Virus record (IMG/VR): IMGVR_UViG_3300020733_000077 | Span: 1-24,384 of that record | Direction: 5' to 3' (one strand) | Length of the DNA stretch: 24,384 nucleotides | Source: a virus | Shown: positions 1,684 through 20,042 of the stretch, piece by piece | How the letters are laid out: each line of letters starts with the position of its first letter | Numbering within the stretch: the first letter of the stretch is position 1 | Notes under the pieces: model-generated | What the model saw: the letters and a program-made list of their open reading frames with translations, nothing else | Databases searched by the model: none | Told to the model about the DNA's origin: nothing | Translations under genes and position numbers: made by a program

Positions 1684-3267
1684 TTAGTTTCCTTCTTGAG
1701 GTCCCTCACCCTTAGCATTACGGGCGGTTCCCATTTTATCTGGAGCATTCAAAGTTCTATTTTGATCACGTGTTTTATTTCCACTTGCATCTGATGCTGC
1801 ATCCGATGCTTGCTTTGGATTAAGAACAAGAACTGCATCACCAGTAGAAATTGGAGGCAATCCCTTACGTGCACGAACTTCATTAGGAAGAATAACTTGA
1901 TCTTTAAGATAACGATCATCAATACGAGATTGTGTCTCTTCATCTGTAAGTGCAAGTTCGTTAAATCTGAGAACAAATGCGTCTGTAAATTCTTTGATTA
2001 TTAGATTAATCTTAAATTCAAGTTCTTCTTGACGTGGACGACATACCTGCTCTTTAAATGTCTTATCTGCATCTTTAGCATTTGCTAGAGATACATTTGC
2101 AGGCATTCCAAGCTTTGATACTGGAACACGGTGAGATAGAAGAATACGATCTCTGTTTTCTACCGCATAGTTTCTGAATGAAGAATCCTGAATTCCCGCT
2201 TCAATTGGCTCCATGTTAAATTCAACACGACCCTGTTCACCATCTGATGGTAGTGGGATGTAAAGAGTTCTATGGTTTCTACCCTTAAGTCCTGTTTGGA
2301 AAAATTCAAGCAATTTACGCTCTGAATCAGCAGTAAGCTTAGCACCTTTAACTGTGATGATATAGCGTGGAACAGCTTTATTTTCAAAGTAATCTAGATT
2401 GAAACGCTGAGCAAACTCATCACCAGCAACGGCGTTCTTAGCTGATAGCACATCTGGAATTCCATAGTATGTATTTGATGGAGTAAAGACTTTAAAGTGA
2501 ATGACTTCATTTGGCTGTGGATCCGTTCCAATCTGGTCTGGAGTTTCTGTATCTCCAAAATTTCTAAAGAATGTGTATCTGTTGTAAACAACTTGTACAA
2601 ATCCGTCACGGTGACGGCGGATACGCATTGTTGTTGTAGGAATATGACCAACATATCCAATCTTACCTGTAGAAGTACGACCAATTTCCATGTAAGCATT
2701 TCCTGTTGATTCTAAGTCAACGAAAATCTTTTTCATTGTTTCTGTAAATGAATCATCTGAGTTCATTGACTCTAGGTGATCTCGCAATTCTTCTTTAAGT
2801 TGTTCAAGCTTGCTACGAAGTTTATCAAGAGCCTTTGGACTCTTATCCATTGCATCTTCAACTTTTTGCTTGGTTGCCCAAGTCTCTTCAAACTTATAGC
2901 CAAGACCAATAACGTTTGCAGCCTTAGCATTTACAGCAGAGTGGTGATATGGAGAAATATCATAAAGCTGTGCTAGGTAAAGAATGTTGTATGGTGGTTG
3001 TACGATTTGAAAAAGAGAGTATCCTGTAAGATCAAGTGGATCAAGTTTCTTTGACTTTGCATCATCAATACCTGTAAATGACTTTTGCATTCTATTAACT
3101 TGACGACGGAAATTAGGGCTTAGTCCCTCCGCCTTTTTAATATCTTCCCATGTTGCATTAAACGGATCACCAAAATCATGTTCTACTGTATGAACTGGTG
3201 CATCCATTTTAACTGTGATGCCCTTATCGTCATCATCCATACTGTCATCAATTTTTAAACTAGCCAA
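1684..3267 (-). CDS. phage portal protein (PBSX/HK97-like)
   Basis: 527-aa portal, the dodecameric ring at the capsid vertex through which DNA is packaged and ejected. Family-typical segments: a membrane-facing N-terminal helix region, LTGYSLFQIVQPPYNILYL (about 80-98), FVDLESTGNAYMEIGR (about 184-199, the conserved TGNAY motif), YYGIPDVLSA (about 268-277), and a stem region ending SLANAKDADKTFKEQV. The C-terminus (about 480-527) is polar and probably disordered. Length is usual for the family. The start is TTG at 3267: a strong AGGGAG site lies about 7 nt upstream, and the gene overlaps the preceding stop by 8 nt. The next ATG (3240, MDDDDKG) has no ribosome site. Identification as a portal is firm; assignment to the PBSX branch is from general resemblance and the XkdF-like protease nearby. 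Confidence 0.9.
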   Translation of the reverse strand: MASLKIDDSMDDDDKGITVKMDAPVHTVEHDFGDPFNATWEDIKKAEGLSPNFRRQVNRMQKSFTGIDDAKSKKLDPLDLTGYSLFQIVQPPYNILYLAQLYDISPYHHSAVNAKAANVIGLGYKFEETWATKQKVEDAMDKSPKALDKLRSKLEQLKEELRDHLESMNSDDSFTETMKKIFVDLESTGNAYMEIGRTSTGKIGYVGHIPTTTMRIRRHRDGFVQVVYNRYTFFRNFGDTETPDQIGTDPQPNEVIHFKVFTPSNTYYGIPDVLSAKNAVAGDEFAQRFNLDYFENKAVPRYIITVKGAKLTADSERKLLEFFQTGLKGRNHRTLYIPLPSDGEQGRVEFNMEPIEAGIQDSSFRNYAVENRDRILLSHRVPVSKLGMPANVSLANAKDADKTFKEQVCRPRQEELEFKINLIIKEFTDAFVLRFNELALTDEETQSRIDDRYLKDQVILPNEVRARKGLPPISTGDAVLVLNPKQASDAASDASGNKTRDQNRTLNAPDKMGTARNAKGEGPQEGN

Positions 3268-15898: not shown

Positions 15899-16138
15899 TT
15901 ATCCTACTAATGCAGCAATTTCATCTGCAGTTAGGCCGAGTTTAGCAAGCTTAGCATTTGCTGATTCAAGAGCTGCTGCTTTTGCAGCATCTGCTTCTGC
16001 CTGTGCAGCTTGTTGAGCAGCAAAATCTTCTTGCATCTTTTGTTGAGCTGCAATTTCATCTGCTGTCATTGGGCGGGTAGTTGAAATACCTGTTGAACAA
16101 TCTACTTCTACTACTTGCGTTGTTGTTGTATCTGTCAT
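15899..16138 (-). CDS. Ala-rich small tail-module protein
   Basis: 79-aa protein: a short N-terminal beta segment (QVVEVDCSTGISTTRPMTADEI, residues 8-29) followed by a long Ala/Glu/Gln-rich helix (about 24-64), probably a coiled coil, ending KLGLTADEIAALVG. I recall small proteins of this pattern (VDCxTG...RPMTxxE + Ala helix) near tail fibre genes of diverse phages, without a firm function; a fibre-assembly or trimer-linker role is a guess. The start is ATG 16138 with AAGGAGA upstream. A 17-nt gap separates it from the six-copy domain array. Confidence 0.65.
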   Translation of the reverse strand: MTDTTTTQVVEVDCSTGISTTRPMTADEIAAQQKMQEDFAAQQAAQAEADAAKAAALESANAKLAKLGLTADEIAALVG

Positions 16139-16155: not shown

Positions 16156-16653
16156 TTAGATTCCGTAAAGTGTAATTTCTGAGTATTGAAGAAATGTTGT
16201 GCTTGAAAACTGTATTGAAGAAATTGAAGAAGTATTTGACCAAAGACCTGATGTCATTAACCCCAAAAAAGTAGATGTAGTATTTTCATCAATTTGATCA
16301 ATAAAATATGATTTATAATTTGATCCTGAATAATTTGGGATATACATTTCAATGTTACTAAATATATTTGAAGTTGAAAGAGAGCCTGAAATGCGTATAT
16401 CTAAATATGAATCTGTAGCACCTGCCACTCCTCCTCCGCCTGGACCATAAGCAAAAACTTGAGAATATCCAGTTCCAATACTGTTAAAAGTTCCATTTAT
16501 ATCGTTCCAAGGTGAGCCACCATTAATATTGTTTCTTACAGACATTTTTACTACTAGATCTGTGTATGTTGATGGAATAGAAGAAAAAGAAATGCTTGTA
16601 GCACCACCTGATGAAACTGTATATGAAGCAATTTTAGTCATTGTGTTAGCCAT
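16156..16653 (-). CDS. LYGI-domain protein A (six-copy array)
   Basis: 165-aa single-domain protein, beta-rich. It carries the signature of the array: ISFSSIPSTYTDLVV (20-34), NIEMYIPNYSGSNYKSY (central strand with N-Y-K), GLWSNTSSISSIQF, and the terminal SEITLYGI. Likely a small tail adhesin or fibre-tip domain; the fold is unknown to me but reads like an all-beta sandwich. Its start is 1 nt after the stop of the preceding gene (gap of one base) with no good ribosome site, so it is probably coupled. It contains a GPGGGG turn in the middle. Confidence 0.68.
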   Translation of the reverse strand: MANTMTKIASYTVSSGGATSISFSSIPSTYTDLVVKMSVRNNINGGSPWNDINGTFNSIGTGYSQVFAYGPGGGGVAGATDSYLDIRISGSLSTSNIFSNIEMYIPNYSGSNYKSYFIDQIDENTTSTFLGLMTSGLWSNTSSISSIQFSSTTFLQYSEITLYGI

Positions 16654-16654
16654 T

Positions 16655-17182
16655 TTATGCTGCCGTTATTCCGTATAAATTAAAAGTTGAACCTGAAGAA
16701 AGATTTGCTCCATTAGCAGTTTGAATTGTAATTTGAGTAATTGCCCCCGTAGATGGAATTAAACTTGCTTGAATTTGTGTATTAAAACCTTGACTACCTG
16801 TATTAACAGAATTTGTTCTACATAAAACAGTTTTGTAAGTTGTAGAATTAGAATAATTAAGAAAATGATAATTATCAGCAGAAAATGTACTACTTGAAGA
16901 TGGTGGTAAATACCCTCCTCTTAAAGAAATTTCAGAAGTAGCTCTACCTGTTGTTGGCGTTGAAGCAGGACCCTGAAAGTATGTACGACTATACCCTGAA
17001 GTTATATTTGTTCCGCCTAAAACTGCTCTAATTGCTGATATATCCCATGAACTACTGACACTTGCTGCAACAACAAATAAAAGATCTGTATATGCTTGTG
17101 GTATTGAAGAAAAAGTAACAATACCTGTTGCACTAGTTAAGTTTTGAGTTGCAATAAGTGTATAAGTTGGTTGAGCTGTCAT
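16655..17182 (-). CDS. LYGI-domain protein B (six-copy array)
   Basis: 175-aa single-domain protein: VTFSSIPQAYTDLLF near the N-terminus, the HFLNYSNSTTYKTV central motif, and FNLYGI at the C-terminus, as in its neighbours. Among the most diverged copies (it lacks the G-W motif). The start is ATG 17182, chosen because GTAGGAGG lies just upstream, overlapping the stop of the previous gene; a longer reading from 17284 would overlap that gene by 94 nt and adds unrelated residues. Role as a tail adhesin is inferred from its neighbours. Confidence 0.68.
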   Translation of the reverse strand: MTAQPTYTLIATQNLTSATGIVTFSSIPQAYTDLLFVVAASVSSSWDISAIRAVLGGTNITSGYSRTYFQGPASTPTTGRATSEISLRGGYLPPSSSSTFSADNYHFLNYSNSTTYKTVLCRTNSVNTGSQGFNTQIQASLIPSTGAITQITIQTANGANLSSGSTFNLYGITAA

Positions 17183-17190
17183 TATTCCTC

Positions 17191-18483
17191 CTACGCTATT
17201 CCATAAAGGGCAATATGTGAATATTGTGCCCAGGATGTATAAACATTTGTATAAATAGAAGTAATTGGTGCAAAATTTTGCCAAAGCCCTCCATCAAAAT
17301 GAATTTGACCAGAACCGCTTGCATCAAATCCACCAATAGAGCGAATTGCCTTATATTTATTTGGATTTGCATAATCTAAAATATCAATAATTATACAACC
17401 ATACACATTTGCTGTTGATGTTCCAGCGGGTAGTCGTTCTGCTTCGGAATTACTTTGAGAAGTAAATGAAGAAGAGCTAGCAGATGAACCGTTGCCAGAC
17501 ACCCAATGAAAAGTATAATTTGCTCCATTATCACCATTAAATCCATAAGCAGCAGGTGAATCTGCTCCTCCTGAATATGTAGAACGTGCAAATATACGTA
17601 GTTGCAAATGACTATAATTTTGAGGTATATTTGTGAATACTGGTGTTGATGTAGATGGACCATTAGGAAAAGAAATTGTTGCAATACTAGCAAAACTATT
17701 AACACTGCTTAATTGTTGAGATGCAGCAGAACCTGTTGATGCAATCTGATTATTACTAGAAACTTGAAATACATATGGTGTTCCAGGATTTAAGCCCTTA
17801 GCAATAATTGGACTTACTGCACTATATGTTGTTGATGTGGCTGGATATGTAGTTAAAGAATAATTTAATGCTTGATCATTAGTTGAAGGAGTAAATGCAA
17901 CTGATGCAGATCCCGCCAAGTCTGAGACAGAGTTAATTACTGGAGATAAAGGCGTTGATGTTGGATATGATTGACCCAAACCGTAAATAGTAAATGTACT
18001 ATAAGATGCAAAATTGCCACTTCCAGCGTAAAGAGTTAAAGATGTAATTGGATTATTTGAGTTATATGATTGTGACCAAAGGTAATTTGAGTATACTGTT
18101 GTACTACTATTTTCCATAAAAGCATCACTATAGCTATTTTTAAATGCCCCGCCAGAATAATTTGGAACAACAAATCTAATGTTTCCATAAGTTCCAGCTG
18201 CTGATGTTGAAGCTGGATAAGCACCTACATTTATTGCTGTAGTTGTATAATCTTTTGCAAATCCAGCAGTTGTTCCAGTTGCAGATAATCCAATGTCGCT
18301 ATATATATTTGATCTATCCCCATTATACCAAGCAGTCAAGTAATCTGTTGATGAAGCATATGTTGATCTTGCACTTATTTCAATTATTAAGTGTGAATAG
18401 TTTTGAGGAATATTATTAAATGTAATAGAATTTGTTGAGCCTGTAGCTGTTTGAGTATATATTGGTTGTAATGTTACTGACAT
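17191..18483 (-). CDS. two-copy LYGI-domain protein with internal FN3-like domain (C)
   Basis: 430-aa fusion: array domain copy 1 (about 1-170: ITFNNIPQNYSHLIIEISARSTY, VPNYSGGAFKNSY, FTIYGLG), an FN3-like domain (about 178-258: SASVAFTPS, GLNPGTPYVFQVSSNN), and array domain copy 2 (about 262-430: FTNIPQNYSHLQLRIFARSTY, ILDYANPNKYKAI, GGLWQNFAPITSI, IALYGIA). The two copies share IPQNYSHL and ARSTY exactly, so they look like a recent internal duplication around an inserted linker. Probably a longer tail adhesin. The ATG follows the preceding stop after one base. Confidence 0.72.
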   Translation of the reverse strand: MSVTLQPIYTQTATGSTNSITFNNIPQNYSHLIIEISARSTYASSTDYLTAWYNGDRSNIYSDIGLSATGTTAGFAKDYTTTAINVGAYPASTSAAGTYGNIRFVVPNYSGGAFKNSYSDAFMENSSTTVYSNYLWSQSYNSNNPITSLTLYAGSGNFASYSTFTIYGLGQSYPTSTPLSPVINSVSDLAGSASVAFTPSTNDQALNYSLTTYPATSTTYSAVSPIIAKGLNPGTPYVFQVSSNNQIASTGSAASQQLSSVNSFASIATISFPNGPSTSTPVFTNIPQNYSHLQLRIFARSTYSGGADSPAAYGFNGDNGANYTFHWVSGNGSSASSSSFTSQSNSEAERLPAGTSTANVYGCIIIDILDYANPNKYKAIRSIGGFDASGSGQIHFDGGLWQNFAPITSIYTNVYTSWAQYSHIALYGIA

Positions 18484-18484
18484 T

Positions 18485-18997
18485 TTATTGCCCCGTTACC
18501 GTTGATGAAGCAATTCCGTATAACTGAAAAGTTCCATATGAAAAATTTCCACCATTTCCAAATACAGTTATTTGTTGTATAGCTGAAGTATTTGCCCAGC
18601 TAGCTCCAAAATATGTAAGTTCGCCTGTACCATTATAATCTCCACCACTTAAAGATTTAGATGTTTTATTTTTATTTGTATTGCTATAATCAAAAATATC
18701 TGCAATAAAAACTGAAGGATGAATTGCTGAATAACCATTTGAATAGCCCATAAGTTGTGCTCCAGAAATTGTATAACCATTTATATTTATAGCGGAACCA
18801 GTAGCATTTATAGCATGAACATAATAACTTGTTGAACCATTATCTGAATTAAAATACATATATGTGCTATTTCCAAATTGACTTCCTTGCATAAACCCTC
18901 TTATTTGAAGATGGGTAAAATTTTGAGGAATATTTGAAAATGTTAGCCCAGAAGCTGTTGTATTAATAGTTTGAGAAGCAATAAGGTACATACTCAT
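18485..18997 (-). CDS. LYGI-domain protein D (six-copy array)
   Basis: 170-aa single-domain protein. Array signature: LTFSNIPQNFTHLQIRGF (18-35), YFNSDNGS, IADIFDYSNTNKNKTSKS, ASWANTSAIQQITVF, FQLYGIA. Start ATG overlaps the previous stop by four bases (ATGA). Same inferred role as its neighbours; the middle third (loops between the N-terminal and central motifs) is where it differs most from the other copies. Confidence 0.7.
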   Translation of the reverse strand: MSMYLIASQTINTTASGLTFSNIPQNFTHLQIRGFMQGSQFGNSTYMYFNSDNGSTSYYVHAINATGSAININGYTISGAQLMGYSNGYSAIHPSVFIADIFDYSNTNKNKTSKSLSGGDYNGTGELTYFGASWANTSAIQQITVFGNGGNFSYGTFQLYGIASSTVTGQ

Positions 18998-19557
18998 TGT
19001 CCTTGCCCCCTAATTCCATATAGTTCAAGTGTTGTTCCTGGTTGCCAAGAACCTGAGCCAGATATAATTGATACTGAAGTAATAGGAGATCTTGATCTCC
19101 AAGTTCCAATTGATGCTTCTGTTGAACCATTATTAACATTTAAAGATGATTTATCTCCTGCAAATCTAGAAATTAAATTTTTATAATAAGAAGGGGTAGT
19201 ATAGTTAAGTATATTTATTTCTGCACTTGCTGTATAAAAAGAATCCCAACCATTAGTCAAACCTCCGCCAAAAATATAGTTGCTGTTTGTGTATGCATAT
19301 GAAGAGTAACCACCTGAAAATGCACTTAAAACAGTTGTAGAATATAAGCTTGTATTACCTGTATCTCCATTAAAATTAATATTTATTCTATTAACATTGC
19401 TTTGAGTTCCAACAACCATTATCCATAAATCTTGATAGTTTTGAGGTATATTTGAAAAAACCACAGAACTTGAAGAAGAAGTAAGTTTTTGATAAGAAAT
19501 TGGAACTACAGCACCATGATTAGAATTAGTACCAGAAAATATAGGAAGCGGACTCAT
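18994..19557 (-). CDS. LYGI-domain protein E (six-copy array)
   Basis: 187-aa single-domain protein with a 20-residue extra N-terminus (PLPIFSGTNSNHGAVVP) before the domain. Array signature: VVFSNIPQNYQDLWIMVV, INFNGDTGN, EINILNYTTPSYYKNLIS, GTWRSRSPITSVSI, LELYGI. It overlaps the preceding Mtd_N-type gene by four bases (ATGA) and the following copy likewise, so the array is read as one coupled unit. First copy in reading order. Confidence 0.7.
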   Translation of the reverse strand: MSPLPIFSGTNSNHGAVVPISYQKLTSSSSSVVFSNIPQNYQDLWIMVVGTQSNVNRININFNGDTGNTSLYSTTVLSAFSGGYSSYAYTNSNYIFGGGLTNGWDSFYTASAEINILNYTTPSYYKNLISRFAGDKSSLNVNNGSTEASIGTWRSRSPITSVSIISGSGSWQPGTTLELYGIRGQGQ

Positions 19558-20042
19558 GCAGTAATGTCACCTACAAGAACCCATGTATCCGTACCTCTTT
19601 TAATTAAGGTAGCGGATGACCATTGACCACGAAGTTTAAGTCCTGGATTATAGTTTATTGTAACTCCCGCTGTAGCAGCAACAGTTACCTGTCCTGTACC
19701 TGTTTGGAGAAGCTGAATTTGTGTTCCAATTGCATAAGCAACTGAAGAACTCAAAGGAACTGTAAGTGTTATTGCAGATGAATTATTTAATTCAATAATC
19801 TTATAAGCATCAGCTAGAACTGTTGTATAAGAAGTTCCAGCCTGTGCATTTGTGACAAGTGCTGGAAATTGTGCATATTGATTAATATAAGAAAGAGAAT
19901 TCCAAAGTGATGATCCATTACCAGCCTTTAAATAGCCTGTATCTGATTCAAGCCCAAGTTCGCCAGCAGCTAGAACTGGATTAGTGACTGTCCACTGAGA
20001 GGCTGTTCCTCTACGAATCTGTATCTGTGTTTGTACTGGCAT
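19554..20042 (-). CDS. tail protein with Mtd-type N-terminal domain
   Basis: 162-aa protein. Residues about 5-50 match the N-terminal domain of major tropism determinant-like tail proteins (QIQIRRGTASQW, NPVLAAGELGLESDTGYLKAG, then SSLWNSLSYI), a beta-prism module that anchors fibre proteins to the tail. Residues about 66-162 are the same domain as the C-terminus of the 317-aa fibre protein (GTSYTTVLAD ... TGTGQVTV ... WSSATLIKRGTDTWVLVGDI). There is no C-type lectin variable domain, so this is not itself an Mtd. ATG 20042 directly follows the preceding stop, with GGAGGA upstream inside that gene. Confidence 0.78.
   Translation of the reverse strand: MPVQTQIQIRRGTASQWTVTNPVLAAGELGLESDTGYLKAGNGSSLWNSLSYINQYAQFPALVTNAQAGTSYTTVLADAYKIIELNNSSAITLTVPLSSSVAYAIGTQIQLLQTGTGQVTVAATAGVTINYNPGLKLRGQWSSATLIKRGTDTWVLVGDITA

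Follow-up and report, generated by a model that had tools for sequence, protein, structure and literature searches.

What could a virus build from six related copies of one unnamed protein domain, encoded side by side in five genes of its tail-fibre gene array? The question is raised by the 24.4-kb viral contig analysed here in full (24,384 nucleotides, hereafter the window). The five genes lie on one strand at the positions given by the initial annotation (Table 1), which had recognized in them six copies of an all-beta domain. The copies are indeed homologous: in pairwise comparison all 15 pairs outscore the full set of 200 shuffled sequences of equal composition (z 4.8 to 22), at pairwise identities of about 22–34 per cent, and the landmarks IP[QS]xY/F (N-terminal) and [LI]YG[IL] (C-terminal) occur once each in every copy. 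Matches of a six-copy profile to the window are confined to these five genes. The initial annotation knew of no named family for the domain, and searches against Pfam, PHROG and NCBIfam profiles agree, yielding no family match; none of the PDB sequences is related to it.

Two features had not been noticed before. The six copies constitute two sets of three classes, which we call A, B and C, and the two copies of gene g3 are connected via a fibronectin type III (fn3) domain. In transcription order the window reads B, A, C, A, B, C, with class margins of 29 to 92 bits from class profiles trained without the window, and is therefore two complete A/B/C sets. We consider it probable that each set would form a 1:1:1 heterotrimeric receptor-binding head on a tail fibre, the window thus encoding two such heads.

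Table 1. Features of the head-domain locus in transcription order (positions in the window; class scores from the class profiles, margins in bits).
Feature	Position	Strand	Evidence
Fibre protein directly upstream: Mtd_N plus C-terminal domain common in phage tail proteins	19554..20042	-	Mtd_N E 7e-15
g5, first gene of set 1: class B head domain 19009-19509	18994..19557	-	B 83, next best 33 bits lower
g5 N-terminal peptide MSPLPIFSGTNSNHGA, resembling A-type anchor peptides	within 18994..19557	-	
g4, set 1: class A head domain 18509-18997	18485..18997	-	A 122, margin 58
g3: set 1 class C domain 17977-18477, fn3 linker, set 2 class A domain 17194-17700	17191..18483	-	C 87, margin 29; A 165, margin 92
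fn3 linker between the g3 head domains	17698..17967	-	Pfam fn3 E 2.8e-4 (below curated cut-off); model compared with NCAM FN3
g2, set 2: class B head domain 16664-17170	16655..17182	-	B 122, margin 59
g1, set 2: class C head domain 16159-16647	16156..16653	-	C 165, margin 92; AlphaFold2 pLDDT 92
79-aa protein directly 3' of the last C gene; candidate fibre-assembly chaperone or cap	15899..16138	-	Family conserved after ABC

The classes emerge from a survey of relatives. A single-sequence search with the domain of one window copy found one locus only and a six-copy alignment search of genome contigs two MAG contigs; among cultured phages, the sole matches are unannotated records of Caudovirales sp. 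ct2KA10. In IMG/VR, alignment-based searches for the domain turned up loci in several hundred contigs, from which 283 non-redundant viral contigs form the survey sample; these loci were retrieved through conserved motifs, which favours close relatives. Exactly three copies were present in 64 of the first 81 loci (window included) and six in five. With profiles trained on positions 1, 2 and 3 of the three-copy loci, all 181 held-out copies were assigned correctly, and in an IQ-TREE phylogeny of 72 copies, among them both sets of the window, each of the classes A, B and C occupies one side of a branch (SH-aLRT 99/99/97). Clusters lying away from contig ends in the 283 contigs read ABC (175), ABCABC (9), ABCABCABC (1) and, in the window, BACABC, so that the class set A+B+C is retained in nearly 200 uncultured viruses with the whole cluster on the contig. 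An additional copy, either partial, broken or diverged, is present in a few loci (L028, L033, L044, L106, L271, L416, L087); nearly all other deviations in layout are clusters cut by the contig end. Three consecutive ABC sets occur in L107 (cut by the contig end), L108 and L219, where every A has its own type of N-terminal peptide, conserved among these phages; the three types possibly correspond to three mounting sites.

Within a set the genes practically touch. Neighbouring starts and stops are −8 to +20 nt apart at 97 per cent of A–B and 95 per cent of B–C junctions, and 64 per cent of B–C junctions have a 1-nt overlap, which suggests coupled translation; in the window, g4 and g5 overlap by 4 nt. 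The sequences attached to the domain are distributed unevenly among the classes. N-terminal extensions of at least 60 aa (stop-to-stop frames) were counted in 29 A, no B and a single C, the latter on a MAG contig, and C-terminal extensions of at least 40 aa, mostly glycine-rich by inspection, in no A, eight B and 18 C. In most loci the N-terminal additions of class A are short peptides, hydrophobic or basic, and elsewhere fn3 repeats or longer anchors, with a different peptide on each A in genomes that have two or three sets, while B and C begin at the domain itself, with no anchor of their own in nearly all loci. The window is an exception: its set 1 is reordered (B-A-C) and the anchor-like peptide is carried by B, so the mounting chain need not be A in every case.

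The fusion of a first-set C through fn3 to a second-set A (C1-fn3-A2) was found in the window and in L078. Both its sequence and its model assign the g3 linker to fn3, the Pfam match lying below the curated cut-off; the model aligns with NCAM FN3 over 88 residues (Z 12.9, rmsd 1.7). In three other loci (L018, L368 and L324), B or C chains bear C-terminal extensions of approximately 210–290 aa, apparently rich in glycine and in this resembling the window's separate Gly_rich_2 genes.

The surroundings of the sets are also conserved. In 231 of 247 loci, a family of small proteins (67–95 aa) comes directly after the ABC set; its members share a VxDCSTG motif, an acidic, alanine-rich composition and the motif LGLTxEEIAAL. 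The 79-aa protein of the window matches no Pfam family and none of the PHROGs convincingly. The protein of 75–80 aa after C probably helps assembly and is a candidate chaperone. Upstream of the set, in 215 of the 247 loci, lies the family that includes the Mtd_N gene of the window, whose product may be the attachment partner. Many relatives have tape-measure and tail genes upstream of the set and peptidase and holin-like genes downstream, identities assigned by sequence inspection. Most of the contig (3650-15696 and 19554-24384), upstream of the head genes, consists of tail-fibre-like genes with Laminin_G_3, Gly_rich_2, fn3 and Mtd_N domains; these stretches also hold two Peptidase_S74 chaperone domains and a weak CBM_4_9 match.

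The all-beta character of the domain is borne out by models of one C and one A copy. The AlphaFold2 model of g1 (105 rows) has twelve strands and no helix, and the fn3 and class A part of g3 was modelled with a pLDDT of 88; classes A and C share the fold, since both models match the same uncultured phage proteins. Three of these in BFVD (A0A6J7WWM7, A0A6J5NIY9 and A0A6J5NFQ6, from uncultured Caudovirales) have the same domain (TM 0.78–0.92, target-normalized; 24–38 per cent identity) and are unannotated single entries for which we found no class structure described. The BFVD relatives include collagen-repeat proteins, and in L028 (1372-4335) a diverged copy stands alone at the end of a 988-aa protein that contains a collagen-like Gxx run of 237 aa; this protein is likely a homotrimeric relative and could represent the ancestral form. 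Concanavalin A-like lectins (galectins, ERGIC-53, the C-terminal domain of GH32) make up nearly all of the top structural matches to the model. Against chains of the GH32 C-terminal domain, galectin, ERGIC-53 and legume lectin, however, Z does not exceed 7.6, at rmsd 3.1–4.6 and 3–13 per cent identity, and a Foldseek search with the model gave no match at E 0.001 or better. The predicted fold is nearest to the concanavalin A-like sandwiches, in which its membership is at most tentative, and glycan binding by the heads is offered as a suggestion because this similarity reaches Z 7.6 at most.

Direct-coupling analysis of 267 paired A/B/C sets bears on contact between the chains. Within chains, couplings match antiparallel strand pairs (5-162, 53-145 and 51-104). 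Between chains, one pair stands out: A2-C4 has a z of 15.4–15.7, against control maxima of 7.8 with random re-pairing and, with nearest-relative re-pairing, of 11.3 (B-C) and at most 7.4 for C-A, and it still reaches 11.4 after removal of 15 principal components. In independent comparisons on a tree built without these columns, A2-C4 shows 16 co-changes vs 0.2 opposite changes (p 1.5e-5), a value that uses one data-driven grouping rule for all pairs and becomes p 0.06 with a crude two-state coding. None of 1500 random inter-chain pairs treated alike fell below 1e-4; for B5-C7 the co-change has p 1.2e-4. Strong covariation is limited to the A2-C4 pair. The covariation of A29-C5 was rejected as a contact, being phylogenetic, and the cyclic agreement of AB, BC and CA maps was not seen, transposed controls being equally high.

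The covarying columns are located in the conserved end of the domain. A single patch, composed of the N terminus, the IPxxY loop, the loop around 106-108, the WxNTxAI region and the C-terminal strand, contains 72 per cent of the top pooled inter-chain pairs, a descriptive figure given that the patch was outlined after the first covariation list had been seen. Random controls place 0–7 per cent of pairs there and swapped relatives 23–33 per cent, so the enrichment is partly phylogenetic. Strand alternation gives the same polarity, the patch end of the sandwich being conserved and the loops of the opposite end, together with strands 4, 6 and 7, variable. Taken together, covariation suggests residue contact between the chains.

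These observations can be combined in the following model. One A, one B and one C would associate to form a heterotrimeric tail-fibre head of beta-sandwich domains. The mounting chain, normally A, would connect the head with the virion or with the unit before it through its N-terminal anchor peptide or fn3 stalk, and the anchorless B and C would dock onto it. The conserved, co-varying end (the N terminus, LYGI and the loops IPxxY, NYxxxxxK and WxNTxAI) would form the side facing the other subunits and the stalk, leaving the variable strands and loops as the surface binding the receptor, probably a glycan. The small protein encoded after C would assist this assembly. B or C may bear a C-terminal extra, either a glycine-rich domain or, as in the window, fn3 and the next A; there, set 1 (B-A-C) and set 2 (A-B-C), joined by C1-fn3-A2, would make a two-headed fibre. 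As N and C termini of the domain adjoin (the 5-162 contact), this fusion suggests heads set side by side or on branches instead of stacked in a straight line. With a heterotrimer, a three-lobed head could be held by a one-chain fn3 stalk, an arrangement not simply open to a homotrimer. For the whole group, we lean towards the view that this widespread, unnamed head of tailed phages is an obligate A:B:C heterotrimer, which would enable a single-chain (fn3) stalk to bear a trimeric head and two or three such heads to be incorporated in one virion.

An obligate A:B:C complex is supported by the equal numbers, the fixed classes, the touching genes, the single anchor chain per set and the inter-chain covariation. 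The initial annotation took the copies for small, exchangeable receptor-binding heads produced by simple tandem duplication with diverging loops. Receptor binding is still the most likely role, because the genes sit within a tail-fibre gene array, and the conserved N- and C-terminal motifs with a variable middle, noted from the six copies, hold across the 267 sets. Exchangeable heads would account for the number of copies and for their variable middle, but the copies fall into three old paralogue classes, present in equal numbers in complete clusters and in an order kept in all but one locus; such old classes at a constant 1:1:1 disfavour simple duplication with diverging loops, and we regard heads of this kind as very improbable. 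The pattern of classes and proportions points instead to a hetero-oligomer rather than to a row of alternative heads.

Three separate heads, homotrimeric or monomeric, with a mounting place and a receptor or glycan for each of A, B and C, are a less remote alternative, though an unlikely one; the constant set would then mirror three fixed places on the tail. Each class is a complete domain with variable regions, and the related copy standing alone on a collagen-like fibre indicates that homotrimers of the domain probably exist. Yet B and C have no anchor sequence in nearly all loci, sets are duplicated as whole ABC units, and residues of A and C and of B and C co-vary. Contact between unlike chains would also be satisfied by a hetero-oligomer other than a trimer, such as A-B-C repeats that ring the tail tip or an A2B2C2 complex, since any equimolar assembly fits the equal numbers and covariation indicates contact, not copy number. 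We nevertheless give such assemblies a somewhat lower probability than separate heads and prefer the heterotrimer, because phage fibre heads are normally trimers, the L028 copy sits on a Gxx run, a collagen-like and trimer-forming stalk, and collagen-repeat proteins are among the structural relatives.

Heads and fibres of unlike chains are known outside tailed phages. In complement C1q, the A, B and C paralogues form one heterotrimeric globular head; it differs in having the C1q fold and a collagen stalk and in being an animal immune protein, and we found no sequence or fold relation to it. The tail proteins of the DSLV2 virophage (QIG59353-QIG59355), products of three consecutive homologous genes whose same-position proteins group in a tree, form a 1:1:1 heterotrimer according to co-purification and electron microscopy (PMC12724248). 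The loci described here likewise keep three consecutive homologous genes together with one clade per position; they differ in that sets can be repeated, one chain bears an anchor and a small partner protein is conserved downstream. DSLV2 has T4 gp37-like tail collar proteins (PF07484) on a virophage capsid, whereas an unnamed beta-sandwich domain of tailed phages is concerned here; a search of the five window proteins for PF07484 gave no match at E up to 1. The heads of the window would therefore work like the DSLV2 tail without being members of that family. The capsid fibre P20:P21 of PBCV-1 is also a viral fibre trimer of unlike subunits, but with 2:1 stoichiometry, a parallel beta-helix and a location on a giant-virus capsid (PMC9617893). 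For tailed phages, we found no report of heterotrimeric fibres of this kind in the open-access literature searched, with few subscription papers covered.

Tail-fibre heads are usually regarded as homotrimers. If the heterotrimer is correct, hundreds of environmental tailed phages would carry an obligate three-gene head, specificity would be set by three genes instead of one, and the prediction of host range from genomes would change accordingly. It would also make sense of a large group of phage proteins that lack annotation and provide a natural system for studying how paralogues become mutually dependent. The heterotrimeric tail principle, reported in 2025 for the virophage (PMC12724248), would thereby extend to tailed phages with an unrelated domain.

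The remaining genes of the window give some indication of its origin. The portal protein (1684-3267) is 57 per cent identical to that of Streptomyces phage Wakanda (Stanwilliamsviridae), and the portal, a 112-aa gene and the prohead protease follow in the same order as in Wakanda. This identity and the similar flanking order make an actinobacterial host likely. In the window, a CHAP/peptidoglycan-binding lysin gene (826-1680) lies between the portal and the 112-aa gene.
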